From positions 744,001-808,000 of the forward strand of contig NZ_SACL01000001.1 in assembly GCF_004005855.1 (NCBI RefSeq): a stretch of 64,000 nt of DNA, written 5' to 3'. Each line of letters begins with the position of its first letter. Positions within the stretch are counted from its first letter, which is position 1. Below the pieces are notes generated by a model that was not told the origin of the DNA, did no database searches, and was given only the letters and a program-made list of their open reading frames with translations. Below are positions 11,492-18,806 of this stretch, one piece after another. The DNA comes from Rhodovarius crocodyli (lineage in GTDB: Bacteria; Pseudomonadota; Alphaproteobacteria; Acetobacterales; Acetobacteraceae). A program made the position numbers and the translations under genes.

Positions 11492-11502
11492 GGCTGACCA
11501 AA

Positions 11503-11533
11503 GCGCCCCGCCGTCCCGGCAGGGCGCTTTTTT
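11503..11533 (+). terminator. Rho-independent terminator after small charged protein gene
   Basis: A GCGCCC stem pairing with GGGCGC, extended by GCC/GGC across one mismatch, and followed by six T. It is well placed 12 bp after the stop of the 82-residue protein. Confidence 0.8.
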
Positions 11534-11601
11534 CTTGGTCAGGCTTTGTTAACCAAGCTGGCTGACACTCGCCTCCTCGACATCTGGCCGAGGAGTTGAC
11601 G

Positions 11602-12267
11602 ATGTCCCTGACCCTTCCTGTGCCGGAAACCGTCGGCCTGGCACTGCCGGATTTCGCGCTTCCTGATCTGGCGCAGGGCCTGACGCCCGCCCCCATGCAG
11701 CCCGCCATGTCGGGTGCCGAGCAGGCGCTGCTGCGCGCTGCCGCGGCAGGGGCACGCAGCATGCTGGAGTTCGGTTGCGGCGGCAGCACGGGTCTGTTGC
11801 TGGATGCGAGCGAGGGCCGCCTGCTGTCGGTCGATTCTGACCGCGCCTGGCTGAACCGCGTGGCCGAGGGTGCCGCCGCCGCTCGCGCGCTGCGCCAAGG
11901 CCGGCTGACGCAATGGCATGCGGAAATCGGGCCGACCCGGGAATGGGGCTGGCCGCTGATGGCGCCTTCGGCCGATACCGGCTGGCGCTATTGGGGCGCC
12001 CCCTGGTTCAGCATGCCGCGCGCGGATTTCGTGCTGGTCGACGGCCGCTTCCGCATCGCCTGCGCCCTGTCTGCCCATGGCCGGCTGGATGCTGAAGGCC
12101 ATGTCGCCATCCACGACTACTGGCCCCGTCGCGCCTATCAGGAGGCCCTGGCCCCCTTCTTCGAGGTGGTCGGGTCAGCCGGCACGCTGGTGCTGCTGAA
12201 GCCGCGCGCCGTCGTACCGGAAGAACTGCAGCAGGCCATCACCACCCACGCCGCGGATCCGCGCTAG
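11602..12267 (+). CDS. Class I SAM-dependent methyltransferase-like protein
   Basis: 221 residues. SAM motif I appears as MLEFGCGGSTGLLL near residue 53, then an acidic motif II (LSVDSD) and a downstream ADFVLVDGRFR segment. This matches a small group of Rossmann methyltransferase-like proteins with no assigned substrate. The start ATG at 11602 has AGGAG 6 nt upstream; a TTG two codons earlier is less likely. The 3' end overlaps the convergent methyltransferase gene at 12264 by 4 nt. Confidence 0.65.
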   Translation: MSLTLPVPETVGLALPDFALPDLAQGLTPAPMQPAMSGAEQALLRAAAAGARSMLEFGCGGSTGLLLDASEGRLLSVDSDRAWLNRVAEGAAAARALRQGRLTQWHAEIGPTREWGWPLMAPSADTGWRYWGAPWFSMPRADFVLVDGRFRIACALSAHGRLDAEGHVAIHDYWPRRAYQEALAPFFEVVGSAGTLVLLKPRAVVPEELQQAITTHAADPR

Positions 12268-13133
12268 GCGGGCAGCGCCAGCAGGTCCAGATGGGGCACG
12301 ACCAGCGACAGCCGCCGCAATTCGGCGTGGCGGCTGCGCATCTCGGCCCAGGCCGCGATCCGCTTGCGGGCGCCGGGCAGCGCGCGGGCAGCAGCCTCCG
12401 CATGACCGATGGCCAGCTCATGGGTCATGGCGACCTGCCGGCGATCAATCTGCCAGGGGCTCGGCGCCAGCCGAACCTTGTAGCCATGGCGGGCAAAGGC
12501 GGCAGCGATGGCCTGGGGCGCGGCCTCACCCAGCGCCTTGCCGCCGAAACCCTTGTCCCGCGCCTGATCACGCGCGAAGCCGCGCCGCACCAGCACATCA
12601 TCGGGATGAGCAGGGAAAAAGCGCGTGCCGCCTGAGACATTCAGCGCCGCATAGAAGGGCAGACCATACTCGGCACAGCCGGCGGCCACCTTCTCCACCC
12701 AATCGGTTGTGACCAGGTCACACAGCGCGGTCGTCACCACCGCGTCCACCTTCTCCAGCGGAAGCTGGTCCGCGGCCTCGCGCAGGTCGGCCAGCAGGCC
12801 CTCGATGCGCCAATGCCCGCCCGGGGCCTTCACCACCAGGGTGCGCGCATCGGGCCAGGCGGTCTGCCAGCCGACCAGATCGGCACGGTCGGCCAGGGTG
12901 GCGAAGGCGCGGTAGACCAGCTCGGCATCGGCATCGACCAGGGTCCAGCTTTGCCCTCGGCCCAGGATGGGCCCCAGCCAGCGGGTGAGCGAGCCGGTGC
13001 CCGCGCCCAGATCGAGCAGGCGCGGCCGCGCCGGCAGCGCGGCGGAGAGCGCCTCAGCCAGGCCAGGGGCGCGGGCCGCGGCGTCGAATGGCTCGCGCAG
13101 GGTCAGCCAATCAGCGGAAAAACTCTCAGTCAC
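12264..13133 (-). CDS. SAM-dependent methyltransferase, last gene of pterin-like operon
   Basis: 289 residues with SAM motif I LLDLGAGTGSL around residue 40 and an acidic loop (LVDADAEL) further on. The GTG at 13133 (VTESFSADWLTL) is chosen because it overlaps the end of the glycosyltransferase by 8 nt, while the upstream extension of the frame is low-complexity shadow sequence. It is the sixth and last cistron of the overlapped operon at 12264-17075. By position it should methylate the glycosylated product or its precursor. The substrate is unknown. Confidence 0.75.
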   Translation of the reverse strand: MTESFSADWLTLREPFDAAARAPGLAEALSAALPARPRLLDLGAGTGSLTRWLGPILGRGQSWTLVDADAELVYRAFATLADRADLVGWQTAWPDARTLVVKAPGGHWRIEGLLADLREAADQLPLEKVDAVVTTALCDLVTTDWVEKVAAGCAEYGLPFYAALNVSGGTRFFPAHPDDVLVRRGFARDQARDKGFGGKALGEAAPQAIAAAFARHGYKVRLAPSPWQIDRRQVAMTHELAIGHAEAAARALPGARKRIAAWAEMRSRHAELRRLSLVVPHLDLLALPA

Positions 13134-14142
13134 GGGCAAGTTCCTGTGCGAAGGCCTCGGCGCGATCGGCCCAGCGGGGCAGGCTGCCGGCGGCTTCCCA
13201 GGCCGCGTCGGACATCTCCTGCCGCAGGCCGGGGTCAAAGATCACGCGGCGCATGGCGCGCGACAGTGAATTGGCGTCACCCGGCTGCGCCACCACGCAG
13301 GCAGCACGCGGAACGACATCGGTAATGGCGCCACCGGCCGTCAGGGCACAGGGCAGGCCGCGTGCGATCGCCTCGGCGGCGGCCATGCCATAGCCTTCCC
13401 AGTGGGTCGCCAGGGCGAACAGGTCCGTCCTGTCATACGCTGCGGCGAGCGTGGCATCGTCCAGCTCGCCCAGGAACTCGACTCGCTGGGCCAGACCCAG
13501 CTCCTCGGCCAGCCCCTTCAGGCCGTTCGCATGCACCTCATCGCGCGCTCCGCCCGCAATGCCCAGGGACCAGTCGAGATCAGCCAGGCGGGCCAGCGCC
13601 CGCAGCAGCACATCGTGCCCCTTGCGCGGCACCAGCGTGCCCACGGCCAGGATCCGCACGCCGGGGCCGCCCGAGCCCTTCGCCCGCTCGGCGGCATCCG
13701 TACCCGGCTCCACCACCCCGACCTTCGCGGCGTCCACGCCGAAGTCGGCGGCCAGGCGCTCGGCGGTCAGGCGCGAGGTGGCGACGAGGCGCTTCATGGC
13801 CGGGAACAGCGCCAGCTCCTTCTCGCGCAGCGCGTCGCGGTTCAGGCCCTTTTCCAGCGCCGTCGGGTGATGGATCAGCCCCACGGCGCGGCCCAGATCC
13901 AGCCCTGCGAAGGCGGGCAGGCCCAGGCCGTCGATCACCGGCAGCTCGTCCTCGGCAATTCCGGCCCAGGCGGCACGGGCGGCCGCCTCGGCCGTGTCGT
14001 CCGGCATGGGGTGGTTGCCGGCCAGTTCGATGACCCGCACCGCATGGCCGTTGGCCCGCAGCCCCGCGATCAGCCGCCGGTCGTAGTTGTAGCCGCCCGA
14101 AACCGTCTCGATGGGGGCCGGGACCAGCAGGGCGATCTTCAC
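13126..14142 (-). CDS. GT4-family glycosyltransferase
   Basis: 338 residues in a GT-B fold. The N-terminal Rossmann half begins MKIALLVPAPIETVSGGY, a typical GT4 donor-retaining start. The C-terminal half has VGTLVPRKGHDVLL and the E-x7-E motif in EGYGMAAAEAIARG. There are no membrane segments, so it acts in the cytoplasm with a nucleotide sugar. It overlaps the pterin-synthase-like gene by 4 nt (ATGA) and the methyltransferase by 8 nt. Together with those neighbours it suggests glycosylation of a small molecule rather than of a cell-surface polymer. Confidence 0.85.
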   Translation of the reverse strand: MKIALLVPAPIETVSGGYNYDRRLIAGLRANGHAVRVIELAGNHPMPDDTAEAAARAAWAGIAEDELPVIDGLGLPAFAGLDLGRAVGLIHHPTALEKGLNRDALREKELALFPAMKRLVATSRLTAERLAADFGVDAAKVGVVEPGTDAAERAKGSGGPGVRILAVGTLVPRKGHDVLLRALARLADLDWSLGIAGGARDEVHANGLKGLAEELGLAQRVEFLGELDDATLAAAYDRTDLFALATHWEGYGMAAAEAIARGLPCALTAGGAITDVVPRAACVVAQPGDANSLSRAMRRVIFDPGLRQEMSDAAWEAAGSLPRWADRAEAFAQELARD

Positions 14143-14540
14143 GCGACGGGCCCTTCGAAGGCGGCCCAGGCCACATGGCTCTCACGCAGCAGCACCTTGA
14201 TGCCGGTCACGCCCGCACCGCCGGGGCCCATGCGGCCGTCGCGGCAGGCCTCGGCCAGCAGGCCATGGATGTGCAGGCACAGATACTCGGTGGTGGTGTT
14301 CTTGCCGGCGAAGACGGGTTCCTCGTCCAGGTTCCGGTAGTCGATCGCGGAGAGGATCTTCCGCAGCTCATCCTTCGCCAGCCCGATGTCGATCAGCAGG
14401 TGCAGATCGTCCAGCTTCGGCGCGCGGAACTCCGCCTCCACCACGAAGGTCGCGCCATGCAGCCGCTGGGCCGGGCCGAATTCCTTACCGCGGAAGCTGT
14501 GCGCGACCATGATGTGGTCGACGACGGTCAGGCTGAACAT
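14139..14540 (-). CDS. 6-pyruvoyl-tetrahydropterin synthase/QueD-like protein with altered active site
   Basis: 133 residues, the length and layout of the PTPS/QueD T-fold family. Canonical enzymes bind zinc with three His (x-AAH and HGH), use a Cys four residues before HGH, and use a His in the L-D-H motif. Here His14 and His28 remain, but the HGH motif reads HGA (Ala30). The Cys position is Ala24 and the catalytic His is Tyr68 (IDYRNLDE). The substrate-anchoring C-terminal Glu (Glu120) and the NTTTEYL segment are kept. It could bind a pterin or similar purine-derived substrate but is unlikely to do the standard reaction. Its neighbours (RibD-like, BchC-like, GT4, methyltransferase) overlap tightly. 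Confidence 0.8.
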   Translation of the reverse strand: MFSLTVVDHIMVAHSFRGKEFGPAQRLHGATFVVEAEFRAPKLDDLHLLIDIGLAKDELRKILSAIDYRNLDEEPVFAGKNTTTEYLCLHIHGLLAEACRDGRMGPGGAGVTGIKVLLRESHVAWAAFEGPVA

Positions 14541-15505
14541 CAGGCGGTGGTCTCCGGATAGGTCACGAGCGGGCAGAGGGCTGGGCGTTCCAGCAGCGCG
14601 GCATAATGCCGGGGCAGGTCGGCAAAGGCGATGGGGGGTTCCAGCAGGCCATCCAGCCTGTCATCGCGCAGCAGATCCAGCGCGAGGGCCATGCGCTCTC
14701 CATGCGTGCGCCGCCCCCGCATGGCGGGCGAGACGCTGCCGACCTGGGTCGAGATGATCTGCAGGCGCTTCTGATGGAAGGCCTCACCCAGCGGCAGGGC
14801 CGGGCGCGCGGCGCCGAACCAGCTGGCTTCGATGAGGCGTGCCTCGAAACCCGCGCGCGACAGGGCCAGGTTCAGCCCGGCCTCCGTGGCGCTGGCATGG
14901 ATGATGAGTTCCTGGTCGGCCGGCGCCTCGGCCGGCGCGCGAAAATCCGCGCCCAGCGCGCGGGCAATGGCGGCACGGGAGGCGTCAGGGTCCACCACCG
15001 TGACCTGCACGCCCGGAAACCGCGCCAGCAGAAACGCCGCGAGCAGCCCGACAACCCCCGCACCGATCACCAGGGCGCGCTCGCCGGCCAGGGGCCGGGC
15101 ATCCCACATGATGTTCAGCGCCGTTTCCATATTCGCGCCCAGCACCGCGCGGTGCGTCGGCAGGGCATCGGGCAGCGGCGTGCAGAAATGGGCGGGGGCG
15201 ACCAGAGCCTCCTGATGCGGGGCCAGCACAAACACACGCCGGCCCGACAGCGCCCCTTCCTCCACCATCGCCACGCCGCAATAGCCATAGGCGACCGGCC
15301 CGCCGAAATCCCCCAGTTGCAGAGGCGCGCGCATGACGGCGTACTGGCTTTCGGGGACGCGGTGGTGCAGCACCAGCCGCTCCGTCCCGCGTGAAATGCC
15401 GCTGGCCAGCATGCGCAGGCGCAATTGGCCGTCGGCGCGCGGCGGCAGGGGGGCGTCGAGCAGCGCCACCTCTCCGGCGGCGGTCACCCAAAGGGCGCGG
15501 GGCAT
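14540..15505 (-). CDS. Zinc-free medium-chain dehydrogenase, BchC-like
   Basis: 321 residues, an MDR-superfamily oxidoreductase. The NAD(P) motif ALVIGAGVVGLLAA lies around residue 145. The usual catalytic-zinc Cys region reads SGISRGTERL, with no Cys, and the structural-zinc lobe with four Cys is absent. This resembles the bacteriochlorophyllide dehydrogenase (BchC) subgroup more than alcohol dehydrogenases. No photosynthesis genes are nearby. It shares 1-nt overlaps (TGATG) with both neighbours. It probably oxidises or reduces a side-chain hydroxyl on the operon's product. Confidence 0.75.
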   Translation of the reverse strand: MPRALWVTAAGEVALLDAPLPPRADGQLRLRMLASGISRGTERLVLHHRVPESQYAVMRAPLQLGDFGGPVAYGYCGVAMVEEGALSGRRVFVLAPHQEALVAPAHFCTPLPDALPTHRAVLGANMETALNIMWDARPLAGERALVIGAGVVGLLAAFLLARFPGVQVTVVDPDASRAAIARALGADFRAPAEAPADQELIIHASATEAGLNLALSRAGFEARLIEASWFGAARPALPLGEAFHQKRLQIISTQVGSVSPAMRGRRTHGERMALALDLLRDDRLDGLLEPPIAFADLPRHYAALLERPALCPLVTYPETTA

Positions 15506-16260
15506 CAGGGACAGACCATGGGGGGGCGGGCGCGGTTCACCGCCATATCGAACAGCACATCCGGGGCGATGTCATGGCAGGTCCAGGAGAGCTTGAGGCC
15601 GTCGCTGATCCGCGCGGCCTCGGGGAGGGCAAAGGCCGGGCGACCCGAGCCCAGGATGATGGGGGCGACCGTGACATGCAGCCGGTCGATCAGCCCGGCG
15701 ATGAGAAAGCGGGACACCGTGATGCCGCCGCCCTCCACGAAGATCCGGGTCAGGCCCTGGGCGGCCAGCGAGGCCAGCAAGGCCGGCAGATGCAGCCGCC
15801 CTTCCCCGCAGCGCGGCACCGGCAGGATATCGGCGGTGCCATGGCGGGTGCCGCGCGCCGCGTCCTCCGCCACCGCCAGGATCGTGCGCGGGCCGCCCTG
15901 GAACACCTTGCGTTCCAGCGGCAGCTCCTGCCGGGTGTCGAGGATGACGCGCACCGGGTCCGGCCCCGGCACCAGCCGGGTGGTCAGTTGCGGGTCGTCA
16001 TTGGCGACCGTCGCGGCACCCACCAGCACCACGTCGCACAAGGCACGCAGGCGATGGGTGTGCATGAGGTCACCCGGCCCGCCGATCCATTGGGATGAGC
16101 CGCTGCGGGTCGCGATGCGGCCGTCCAGCGTCTGTGCCAGGCGGCCGATCACCAGGCATCCGTCAGGGGTGTCAGGCGCCGCCAGCAGCGGCGCGAACAG
16201 AGGGGCAAGCGGGCCCTCGGCCCGCCCCTCCAGCAGCGCGTTCCAGCCTGGGTCGCTCAA
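15505..16260 (-). CDS. RibD C-terminal-type reductase (dihydrofolate-reductase fold)
   Basis: 251 residues. Family motifs: RLAQTLDGRIAT, the GSSQWIGG segment, LCDVVLVGAATVANDDP and the nucleotide-binding IFVEGGG loop near residue 170. RibD_C proteins reduce ribosylaminopyrimidines or related heterocycles with NADPH. The deaminase half of riboflavin RibD is missing, and about 35 extra residues precede the core. It overlaps EipB by 4 nt and the dehydrogenase by 1 nt, so it belongs to the operon. A reduction step on a pteridine or pyrimidine intermediate is a reasonable inference. Confidence 0.8.
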   Translation of the reverse strand: MSDPGWNALLEGRAEGPLAPLFAPLLAAPDTPDGCLVIGRLAQTLDGRIATRSGSSQWIGGPGDLMHTHRLRALCDVVLVGAATVANDDPQLTTRLVPGPDPVRVILDTRQELPLERKVFQGGPRTILAVAEDAARGTRHGTADILPVPRCGEGRLHLPALLASLAAQGLTRIFVEGGGITVSRFLIAGLIDRLHVTVAPIILGSGRPAFALPEAARISDGLKLSWTCHDIAPDVLFDMAVNRARPPMVCP

Positions 16261-17075
16261 CAGCCACCGGGGGTTGGCGCCAGCTCCAGCAGCTCACCGG
16301 CGACGCTGAACTCGCCGAAATCCATGTGGACGTCATCGGCCACGCCATTGGCATAGTAGCGCAGCGCGACCTCATAGTTCGGCGTGCCGGCGCCTGCCTG
16401 GGAGCCGGGCTCAAAGAAGGAAATGCGCATGCGCTGCGCTGCCTGGCCCGCCATGGCGGGGAAGCGGGGGTTGGCCTGCGGCTCCTGCATCGCGCCGATC
16501 ATGAAGGTGCTGGTTTCCTGCGCGCCGTCCTCATCCGTGCCGTCCATCAACGGCGCGGCCAGGATGCGCTGCCCGGCGCGTGCGGTGGCCAGGGCGCGGA
16601 TGGTGTGCATCATCGGGAACAGCGTGCCGCGCGGCAGCTGGGTCTCGTTGGGCGCGGGGTCCTGGTAGGTGACGCGGCCGGTGCCGTCCGGGTTGCGCGT
16701 CGCCTCGCCGGAGATGCGCTGGGTGACGGCGCCCTCGGTCATCTGCGTCAGGGAGAAGCGCAGGCGGGAACCGTCCTTGGCCTCGAAGGTGGAATAGTCG
16801 CTGCTGGTCTCGATGCGGTTGCCGTCGCGGTCCGTGACCACCAGGGTGAAGCGCTGGCGCGTGGTCCAGCCTTCGCAGGCGTCCTGGATCTCGAAGACCA
16901 TGGCGCCCTCGGCCCGCTGCACGCCGCCCTGGTCGCGCACGCGGTCCAGGTTCAGCCGGTACGCCGCGCGGTGGGCGAGCATGGCGCCCGCCCCCTCCTG
17001 CGGTTCGGCAGCGGTGGCGGGCAAGGCCCAGGCGAGGGAGACGGCGGCGATGCCGGCCAGGAGGATGCGACGCAT
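16257..17075 (-). CDS. EipB-type (DUF1849) envelope integrity protein
   Basis: 272 residues with a signal peptide (MRRILLAGIAAVSLAWA, cleavage after ATA near residue 23). The mature part begins with a HRAAYRLNLDR segment typical of DUF1849/EipB, a periplasmic beta-barrel-like protein needed for envelope integrity in Brucella and relatives. A Cys in DACEGW and a C-terminal Cys as last residue may form the disulfide known for EipB. The start ATG at 17075 is chosen because the upstream frame is shadow sequence. Its stop overlaps the RibD-like gene (ATGA), making it the first cistron of the six-gene operon. Confidence 0.85.
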   Translation of the reverse strand: MRRILLAGIAAVSLAWALPATAAEPQEGAGAMLAHRAAYRLNLDRVRDQGGVQRAEGAMVFEIQDACEGWTTRQRFTLVVTDRDGNRIETSSDYSTFEAKDGSRLRFSLTQMTEGAVTQRISGEATRNPDGTGRVTYQDPAPNETQLPRGTLFPMMHTIRALATARAGQRILAAPLMDGTDEDGAQETSTFMIGAMQEPQANPRFPAMAGQAAQRMRISFFEPGSQAGAGTPNYEVALRYYANGVADDVHMDFGEFSVAGELLELAPTPGGC

Positions 17076-17134
17076 CCAGCCAATGTAGGCATTTTTGCGC
17101 CGCGTTGCAGTGGGCTGGGTGTTACTGGGGTATT

Positions 17135-17470
17135 TCAGTCCACAATGAACAGCTTCGCGCCCTTGTCGCCGGTCTTGGAGCGGTGGGGCGAGTCGCCGAA
17201 ATCGGACACCTTGTACCCCTGGCCCGGCGTCATCGGGAATTCGCGGCCGTCCTGCAGCTCGCTGGTCAGCTCGCCTTCCAGCAGCAGCATCACATGGCCG
17301 CGGTCGCACCAATGGTCCGCCAGATAGCCCGGGGAATACTCCACGATGCGGATGCGGACGTCGCCCATGGTCACGGTGCGCCACAGGGCGAAGCCCGTGG
17401 TGCCTTCGTGGCGGGTGGGCTCGACCTTGGACCAGTCGATCGCGGTAAACGGGGATTCCGGGAGTTTCAT
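17135..17470 (-). CDS. DHCW-motif cupin-fold protein
   Basis: 111-residue single-domain cupin. The motif D-H-W-C-D-R-G-H around residue 52 holds candidate metal-binding His and is typical of a small family named for this motif. A PMTPGQGYKVSDFGDSPHRS segment follows. No substrate is known. Its start overlaps the stop of the SnoaL-like gene by 4 nt, so the two are co-translated. Confidence 0.75.
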   Translation of the reverse strand: MKLPESPFTAIDWSKVEPTRHEGTTGFALWRTVTMGDVRIRIVEYSPGYLADHWCDRGHVMLLLEGELTSELQDGREFPMTPGQGYKVSDFGDSPHRSKTGDKGAKLFIVD

Positions 17471-17871
17471 GCACCCACCTGCTGCAGCCAGTCGGCCAGG
17501 TTGTAGAAGTTGCTGACGCGCGCGATGCGCCCGCCGCGGATGTCAAAGAAGGCGCCCGCCGGCAGAACGTAGCGCTGGCCCGTGGCCGGCGGCAGCCCCT
17601 CGTCGGTTGCCTTATAGGTGCCATGCACCACGAACTCAGCCGACGCCCGGGCGCCATCCGGCGCCGCCATCACCACGATGTCCCGCAATTGCTCGGCATA
17701 GGAGCGGTCCATGCGCGCCAGGAAGGCACGGAAGGCGTCCATGCCCACCTCACGCCCGCCCTGGTTGATGTCGTGCGCCACGTCATCCGTCAGCAGCGAG
17801 AGCATGGTTTCCCACTCGCCCGCGTTGAAAGCGGCATAATAGCGGCGGATCAGGTCGATGGTCTCGGTCAT
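17467..17871 (-). CDS. SnoaL/NTF2-like (ketosteroid-isomerase-related) protein
   Basis: 134 residues with the alpha+beta cone pattern: an N-terminal helix ([17 protein letters not shown]), [11 protein letters not shown], and beta strands ending in [12 protein letters not shown]. Members are isomerases, cyclases or small-ligand binders. It starts the two-gene unit with the cupin and diverges from glyQ across a 77-bp promoter region. Confidence 0.75.
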
Positions 17872-17948
17872 GTGGCTTCCGGGATGGGTGCTGCATGTTT
17901 ATGTTGCACCGCCTCAGACTGCGCCAGCCCAGGGTTACCAAGCCGGAC

Positions 17949-18806
17949 ATGACCAAAGCTCTTTCCTTCCAGGACATGATCCTGACGCTGCACCGCTACT
18001 GGTCCAGCCAGGGCTGCCTCATCCTCCAGCCCTATGACATGGAAATGGGCGCGGGCACCTTTCACCCGGCCACCACGCTGCGCGCGCTGGGCGGCACGCC
18101 CTGGAAGGCGGCCTATGTCCAGCCTTCCCGCCGCCCGTCGGATGGCCGCTATGGCGAGAACCCGAACCGGCTGCAGCACTATTACCAGTACCAGGTCATC
18201 ATGAAGCCGAGCCCGCGTGACCCGCAGGCCCTGCTGCTGGAAAGCTACAAGGCGCTGGGGCTGGACCCCGCCCTGCACGACATCCGCTTCGTCGAGGATG
18301 ACTGGGAAAGCCCGACGCTGGGCGCCTGGGGCCTGGGCTGGGAAGTCTGGTGCGACGGCATGGAGGTGACGCAGTTCACCTATTTCCAGCAGGTCGGCGG
18401 CATCCCGTGCGAGGTGCCGAGCTGCGAGCTGACCTACGGCCTGGAACGGCTGGCCATGTACATCCAGGGCGTCGAGAACGTGTACGACCTGCGCTTCAAC
18501 GACGACGGCGTGACCTATGGCGAGGTGTTCCTGCGTGCCGAGCAGGAATACAGCGCCCACAACTTCGAATTCGCCAACATCGACCTGCTGAAGAAGCAGT
18601 TCGAGGAAGCCGAGCAGGAATGCCTGGCGCTGGTGGAGAAGGGCCTGGCCATGCCGGCCTATGACCACTGCATCAAGGCCAGCCACCGCTTCAACCTGCT
18701 GGACGCGCGCGGCGCCATCAGCGTGACGGAGCGCGCGGCCTATATCGGCCGGGTGCGCACGCTGGCAAAGGCCTGCTGCGAAAGCTGGCTGGCCAAGGCC
18801 GCCTGA
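17949..18806 (+). CDS. glyQ: Glycyl-tRNA synthetase alpha subunit
   Basis: 285 residues; the catalytic subunit of the bacterial alpha2beta2 glycyl-tRNA synthetase. It begins with [18 protein letters not shown] and has the invariant [16 protein letters not shown] and [18 protein letters not shown] segments. Start is the ATG at 17949, because upstream codons do not match the family. glyS follows 50 bp downstream. Confidence 0.97.

Follow-up and report, generated by a model that had tools for sequence, protein, structure and literature searches.

Proteins of the PTPS-IV subfamily of COG0720, recognised by the signature FGPAQ, have been known since 2017 as a cluster of 561 sequences whose genes neighbour those of PF00925 and RibD_C proteins (PMC5445326). 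Both the subfamily and its neighbourhood are thus already in print, as is the crystal structure of an ortholog (PDB 3d7j). That account labels PF00925 as GTP cyclohydrolase I/FolE2, whereas in our analysis it is GTP cyclohydrolase II (GCH II), and its passages on the subfamily name no dehydrogenase, GT4 glycosyltransferase, methyltransferase, creatininase, CDP-alcohol enzyme or product. Here we describe five enzyme genes, one of them encoding a PTPS-IV protein, in a 64,000-nucleotide stretch of the Rhodovarius crocodyli genome (contig NZ_SACL01000001.1, positions 744,001 to 808,000), hereafter the window. The other four encode a RibD_C-type reductase, a BchC-like dehydrogenase, a GT4 glycosyltransferase and a class I S-adenosylmethionine (SAM) methyltransferase. 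In our opinion, the five genes probably form the centre of a small-molecule pathway of their own, leading from GTP to a pterin- or pyrimidine-like compound that is methylated and bears a sugar, a reading to which we assign a probability of about 0.6.

Several described systems share parts of this gene set. The early riboflavin pathway (GCH II, a BrbF or ArfB formamidase, and RibD_C) has the same three enzyme types as the extended cluster; unlike it, the cluster is without a deaminase domain and has PTPS-IV, dehydrogenase, and sugar and methyl steps instead. QueD (PTPS-I) and 6-pyruvoyl-tetrahydropterin synthase (PTPS-II) have the PTPS/T-fold family and a ring-binding Glu in common with PTPS-IV, in which, by contrast, the catalytic Cys is replaced by Ala, HGH by HGA, and a triad His by Tyr. 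The cyanopterin/biopterin glucosyltransferase systems share a glycosylated pterin with the proposed pathway, and the toxoflavin cluster shares GCH II, RibD and a methyltransferase; the gene sets described for the two are different. BchC, the 3-hydroxyethyl bacteriochlorophyllide dehydrogenase, provides the best equivalog model for the window dehydrogenase, which scores far below its cut-off and whose partners are not photosynthesis enzymes. No description of the five-gene pathway was found in the literature searched, to which subscription papers mostly did not belong, and an initial annotation of the window had likewise held that no named pathway fits.

In the window, the five genes follow one another on the minus strand: the RibD_C-type reductase (15505..16260; 251 aa; presumed TTG start; PF01872, E 2.2e-44), the BchC-like medium-chain dehydrogenase (14540..15505; 321 aa; TIGR01202 below threshold; a predicted alcohol-dehydrogenase fold), the PTPS-IV (SCO6650-type) protein (14139..14540; 133 aa with FGPAQ and HGA; PF01242, 72.9 bits, 3e-20), the GT4 glycosyltransferase (13126..14142; 338 aa; PF00534 (Glycos_transf_1), 2.3e-28) and the methyltransferase (12264..13133; 289 aa; presumed GTG start; Methyltransf_23, 3e-4, below the curated cut-off). 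They are preceded on the same strand by a gene for an EipB-like exported protein (16257..17075; PF08904, 7.1e-72; ATG start seen). Successive genes, from EipB to the methyltransferase, overlap by 4, 1, 1, 4 and 8 nt, exactly the frames and overlaps of the initial annotation.

The five enzyme genes are one unit, whose order is conserved across several bacterial phyla. In a sample of 192 genomes drawn evenly from the class, BchC-like orthologs (at least 157 bits; the next best match among those listed reached 40 bits) occur in 24 genomes, namely the source genome (G000) and 23 others, and PTPS-IV proteins occur in the identical set of 24. The order BchC-PTPS-GT4-methyltransferase is kept in 22 of these 23 relatives; in the exception (G028), PTPS, GT4 and methyltransferase genes are adjacent near a contig end and the BchC-like gene is on a separate contig. 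We also kept the best 80 of at least 586 stretches (stretches, not counted genes) encoding PTPS-IV relatives. These named loci come from Acetobacteraceae, other Proteobacteria, Actinomycetota, and metagenome-assembled genomes (MAGs) labelled Acidobacteria and Gemmatimonadota. The four-gene order is present in 65 of them and PTPS-GT4-methyltransferase in 67; in two loci (L099 and L136) the BchC-like gene is close by but inverted. A phylum-wide sample of 299 genomes, searched with the BchC-like profile, gave matches in 22, of which 14 belong to the same class and 8 to other classes. The RibD_C gene accompanies the core in 19 of the 22 class loci and in 54 of the 80 named ones. Its placement in the class loci varies: in 8 it precedes the core on the same strand, and in 11 it lies downstream of the methyltransferase gene on the opposite strand, all of the latter within 0.9 kb of that gene and three with a gap of at least 0.5 kb. 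Since the order is shared by Proteobacteria, Actinomycetota and MAGs labelled as Acidobacteria and Gemmatimonadota, the gene set probably makes something useful. The same counts bear on the initial annotation, which had taken the strict coupling of six genes to indicate one product and had proposed a search for the same order in relatives. The order was found there, the genes are not scattered, and the coupling argument holds for the five enzyme genes; it fails for EipB.

With the start codons chosen for the class loci, the PTPS-GT4 overlap is exactly 4 nt in 10 of 22, and the overlap of the GT4 and methyltransferase genes is 4 or 1 nt long in 16 of 22. Distances between core proteins are positively correlated (0.33 to 0.69; locus L050 omitted, species descent uncontrolled). 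Among the matches listed, the named PTPS protein closest to that of the window is from Roseococcus thiosulfatophilus (94% identity). In one genome, the BchC-like gene was matched as two separate pieces (G359:C1:3776773-3777736), of which one is interrupted by a stop codon, so that this cluster may be decaying.

Judged by its sequence, the PTPS-like protein is a member of PTPS-IV and an ortholog of SCO6650 from Streptomyces coelicolor. FGPAQ occupies residues 21-25, with F21, G22, P23 and A24 invariant and Q25 nearly so among 23 sequences, and the family profile matches the SCO6650 structure, 3d7j, over its full length with an E-value of 2.3e-61, the next solved PTPS reaching 2e-7. In an alignment of 103 sequences (window, 22 class loci and 80 named loci), the catalytic Cys is replaced by Ala in 102 and by Ser in one, and HGH is HGA in all, the CxxxHGH motif of QueD thus reading AxxxHGA; His14, His28, Glu85 and Glu120 are retained in all 103. 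In PTPS, these four residues presumably have zinc-ligand and ring-anchor roles. Alignment with a solved PTPS places Tyr at the position of the triad His, and Spoonamore and colleagues (2008) reportedly described the SCO6650 structure as missing zinc and triad and having a pterin-like site. The window protein scores 38.8 bits against the QueD model TIGR03367 (cut-off 89.25) and does not have the PTPS-II pattern (CxxxxxHGH with a Cys/Asp/His triad). Of the two families in the published PTPS-IV neighbourhood (PF00925 and PF01872), RibD_C is encoded next to the core in the window and GCH II is not. The source genome has its own QueD, with CxxxHGH, adjoining a QueE-like gene on contig C43. Thus, the PTPS-like protein is not an ordinary QueD; had it been one, the initial annotation would have been refuted. 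Four named records annotate the protein in the PTPS place as 6-carboxytetrahydropterin synthase, and the PTPS-IV-place proteins of three plasmid records (L217, L218 and L219) also carry a queuosine Gene Ontology term. These public labels are contradicted by the loss of the QueD residues in the family.

The only Pfam match of the RibD_C protein is PF01872 (residues 37-214), and no deaminase domain was found in it with Pfam; it scores 150.0 bits with TIGR00227 (cut-off 150.15), 121.5 bits with the archaeal reductase model TIGR01508 (186.45) and 108 bits with the bifunctional model TIGR00326 (156), so that it is not a two-domain RibD. The BchC-like protein reaches 39.1 of the 291 bits that TIGR01202 demands, and no Cys is invariant among 22 relatives. 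Among proteins of solved structure, the GT4 protein is closest in sequence to Tll1590 and a D-inositol 3-phosphate glycosyltransferase. The methyltransferase has invariant D41, G45 and G47 in its SAM motif (28 sequences) and a class I methyltransferase fold predicted with a local distance difference score (pLDDT) of 96.5. Fold searches with it and with the dehydrogenase did no more than assign them in general terms to the class I methyltransferase and alcohol-dehydrogenase folds. RebM (rank 3) and AtmM (rank 11), both sugar O-methyltransferases, were too weak as models (TM about 0.44) and were not used.

The genes that recur around the core suggest where the substrate comes from. GCH II is encoded near the core in 8 of 22 class loci and 29 of 80 named loci, and a creatininase-family protein in 4 of 22 and 23 of 80. 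In Sinorhizobium (S. meliloti), the creatininase-family protein BrbF deformylates the formylated intermediate FAPy in a parallel branch (PMC9478397). Among 27 actinobacterial GCH II loci, the residue compared is Met in 14, His in 6 and Tyr in 7; all 20 Met or His loci have a creatininase and none of the Tyr loci does (Fisher 1e-6, families not being independent). We assume this residue to be at the position of E. coli Tyr105. Met at that position reportedly makes SCO6655 stop at FAPy (Spoonamore 2006), and the pairing of Met or His with a creatininase is what is expected of a GCH II activity split in two, with the creatininase as its second half. The source genome encodes a cluster-type GCH II on contig C7 (364 bits), and creatininases on C1 (158 bits), C44 (144 bits) and C33 (64 bits). 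Separate from these, on C48, it encodes a bifunctional-length RibD and a second GCH II-domain protein, presumably RibBA.

On this basis, the following route may be proposed. The presumed substrate, GTP, would be opened by GCH II to FAPy or directly to 2,5-diamino-6-ribosylamino-4(3H)-pyrimidinone 5'-phosphate, and if the cyclohydrolase goes no further than FAPy, the formyl group would be stripped by the creatininase-family enzyme. RibD_C would reduce the ribosyl to a ribityl group. In the absence of a deaminase domain, the ring would retain its 2-amino group and be pterin-like, not flavin-like. PTPS-IV, in which the ring-anchoring Glu is kept and the Cys/His/zinc chemistry of PTPS and QueD is gone, is proposed to bind the ring; it may perform or template the ring closure or a side-chain rearrangement. 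The BchC-like dehydrogenase would oxidise or reduce a side-chain alcohol, GT4 would add a sugar, and the methyltransferase would cap the putative product. In the source genome, the early steps would come from genes elsewhere (GCH II on C7; creatininase candidates on C1 and C44). The neighbouring GTP enzyme being GCH II, the route looks riboflavin-like and not like the FolE route of biopterins. The decorated pteridine or pyrimidine of the initial annotation survives as the best reading, and the pterin idea is better placed in the riboflavin-type branch than in the FolE branch.

It should be noted that a number of observations weigh against this reading. GCH II and the creatininase are each found in 0 of 43 named loci of the Acetobacteraceae/Proteobacteria type, those nearest to the window, and two cluster-free genomes (G021 and G132) have a GCH II equal in Pfam score to that of the source genome, whose GCH II may for that reason be a housekeeping enzyme. 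The Met/His/Tyr split tracks actinobacterial families and hence reflects few events; in the other 10 GCH II loci the residue is always Tyr, yet 4 of them have a creatininase. The cluster creatininase is likened to BrbF by family, not by sequence, and a distant BrbF homolog failed to complement (PMC9478397). No more than 10 of the 32 actinobacterial loci have a recognised RibD_C gene, and GT4 or the methyltransferase is absent or unrecognised in 13 of the 80 named loci, of which L086 ends at a contig edge and most others have room for the gene. Finally, the role given to PTPS-IV is a guess.

Four other explanations were considered. GCH II and RibD also feed coenzyme F420 (deazaflavin) biosynthesis. 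A function of PTPS-IV in archaeal F420 synthesis is mentioned, as unpublished, in another report (PMC5041015). In 23 of the 24 carriers (G028 left out), however, a CofH above cut-off and an F420 ligase were found together in only 4, on other contigs than the core, and the remaining 19, the source genome among them, have neither; an F420 role is largely refuted for these bacteria and very improbable overall. That the cluster is an accessory riboflavin or flavin-secretion branch, in which GCH II, formamidase and RibD_C yield extra flavin precursor, would suit the riboflavin-pathway types of all three enzymes, with the parallel BrbF branch of S. meliloti as precedent (PMC9478397). Yet PTPS-IV, GT4 and the methyltransferase have no known role in such a branch; a RibD and a GCH II-domain protein are encoded separately in the source genome, and the core is confined to 24 of 192 genomes. 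Nor did the recurrent neighbour families scanned, a subset of all neighbours, include a deaminase, 3,4-dihydroxy-2-butanone 4-phosphate (DHBP) synthase, lumazine synthase or riboflavin synthase. We regard this branch as quite improbable.

Cyanobacterial pterin glycosides need a glycosyltransferase, and the PTPS fold family and the public annotation as 6-carboxytetrahydropterin synthase would fit a 7-deazapurine (queuosine- or preQ0-like) or a FolE-derived biopterin-glycoside pathway. The residue losses found in all 103 sequences and the true QueD beside a QueE-like gene elsewhere in the source genome argue against it, as do the recurrent neighbours scanned, which include GCH II and neither FolE nor QueE; such a pathway is decidedly unlikely. 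The loss of catalytic residues with retention of the ring-binding Glu could also make PTPS-IV a ring-binding or carrier protein without catalytic activity, in an operon that modifies or salvages a pterin or purine rather than making one. The RibD_C and GCH II neighbours indicate synthesis, and this explanation is, in our view, unlikely. The dedicated GTP-derived pathway thus remains our preferred reading. With the enzyme list, the GCH II link, the covarying creatininase and the F420 and queuosine tests, the question is open to gene deletion and metabolomics, and a solved pathway would explain what PTPS-IV, including the uncharacterised protein of structure 3d7j, does.

In some lineages, the cluster has a possible membrane branch. 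A profile for a CDP-alcohol phosphatidyltransferase gave 40 matches in 39 of the 103 other loci (23 class and 80 named, some of them short), 22 of the matches being the training set, and none in the window; 38 of the 40 have the catalytic motif. In the class sample, this subfamily occurs in 11 of 192 genomes, all 11 of them carriers (P 1e-11, E up to 1e-15), one of which (G116) had supplied a training sequence, and in at least three of the 11 it is on another contig than the core. The profile search did not find it in the source genome and 12 other carriers (13 of 24). Clusters at actinobacterial, gammaproteobacterial and Gemmatimonadota loci include a gene for a flippase-like LPG_synthase_TM protein; as a class-wide cluster marker this protein is not supported, since only 7 of the 30 genomes with it (of 192) are carriers (P 0.056). 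On Agrobacterium tumefaciens plasmid pAt, a single run comprises genes for a sulfatase, the flippase-like protein, the CDP-alcohol enzyme, GCH II, the four-gene core, RibD and a cytochrome b, and plasmids of Microbacterium, Streptomyces and Methylosinus have parts of this set. The confinement of the CDP-alcohol subfamily to carriers hints at a lipid-linked form in genomes other than the source genome. The phosphatidyltransferase would join the pterin-like product to CDP-diacylglycerol, the flippase-like protein would move the lipid-linked product, and cytochrome b561 would exchange electrons with it; the 13 carriers in which no CDP-alcohol enzyme was detected would keep a soluble form. That the product is a new glycosylated pterin-like class serving in many lineages as a membrane phospholipid head group, a lipid-anchored redox pterin, we consider unlikely. 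A cytochrome b561 gene is found near RibD in several alphaproteobacterial clusters (L043:3538-4107, by Pfam; similar open reading frames in L046 and L053; L220:12978-13511).

The EipB-like gene, which the initial annotation had made the first cistron of the system and a hint of use in the envelope, is a neighbour and not a member. It adjoins the cluster in 0 of the 103 other loci, some of them short (tallied with a single-sequence profile), none of which shows an EipB-RibD overlap. Placement with the curated Pfam profile detected EipB in all but one of the 24 carriers and in 4 of the 9 cluster-free genomes examined; it is beside the cluster in the source genome only, away from it in 22 of the other 23 carriers and absent from one. 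EipB is thereby ruled out as a component, and the envelope hint falls with it. In the close relative Roseococcus, the genes upstream of the cluster look flagellar when read by eye.

By consensus matching alone, no sigma-70-like promoter was detected at 11500-18000 of the window, and five terminator-like sites were (shuffle mean 2.3), three of them on the minus strand within the RibD-EipB-BchC coding region. Several minor observations concern neighbouring genes. In L087 (11446-12732) and L094 (11439-12722), translations read by eye suggest a sugar-acid-kinase-like gene and then an aldolase-like gene after GT4, in the usual methyltransferase place. A large GT2-type protein (family F7; by Pfam for L046) recurs divergently upstream of the BchC-like gene in L043, L046, L051 and L053, and in Methylosinus an mdoH-annotated gene has the corresponding position. 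An FkbM-type methyltransferase recurs near some clusters (L110:16057-16977; L053:11764-12702). In the window, a 223-aa open reading frame on the plus strand (11596-12267), without a Pfam or NCBIfam family at E 0.001, converges with the methyltransferase gene and overlaps it by 4 nt. On the 5' side of EipB lie minus-strand genes for a DHCW-motif cupin and a ketosteroid-isomerase-related SnoaL protein (17135-17470 and 17467-17871), which overlap each other by 4 nt.

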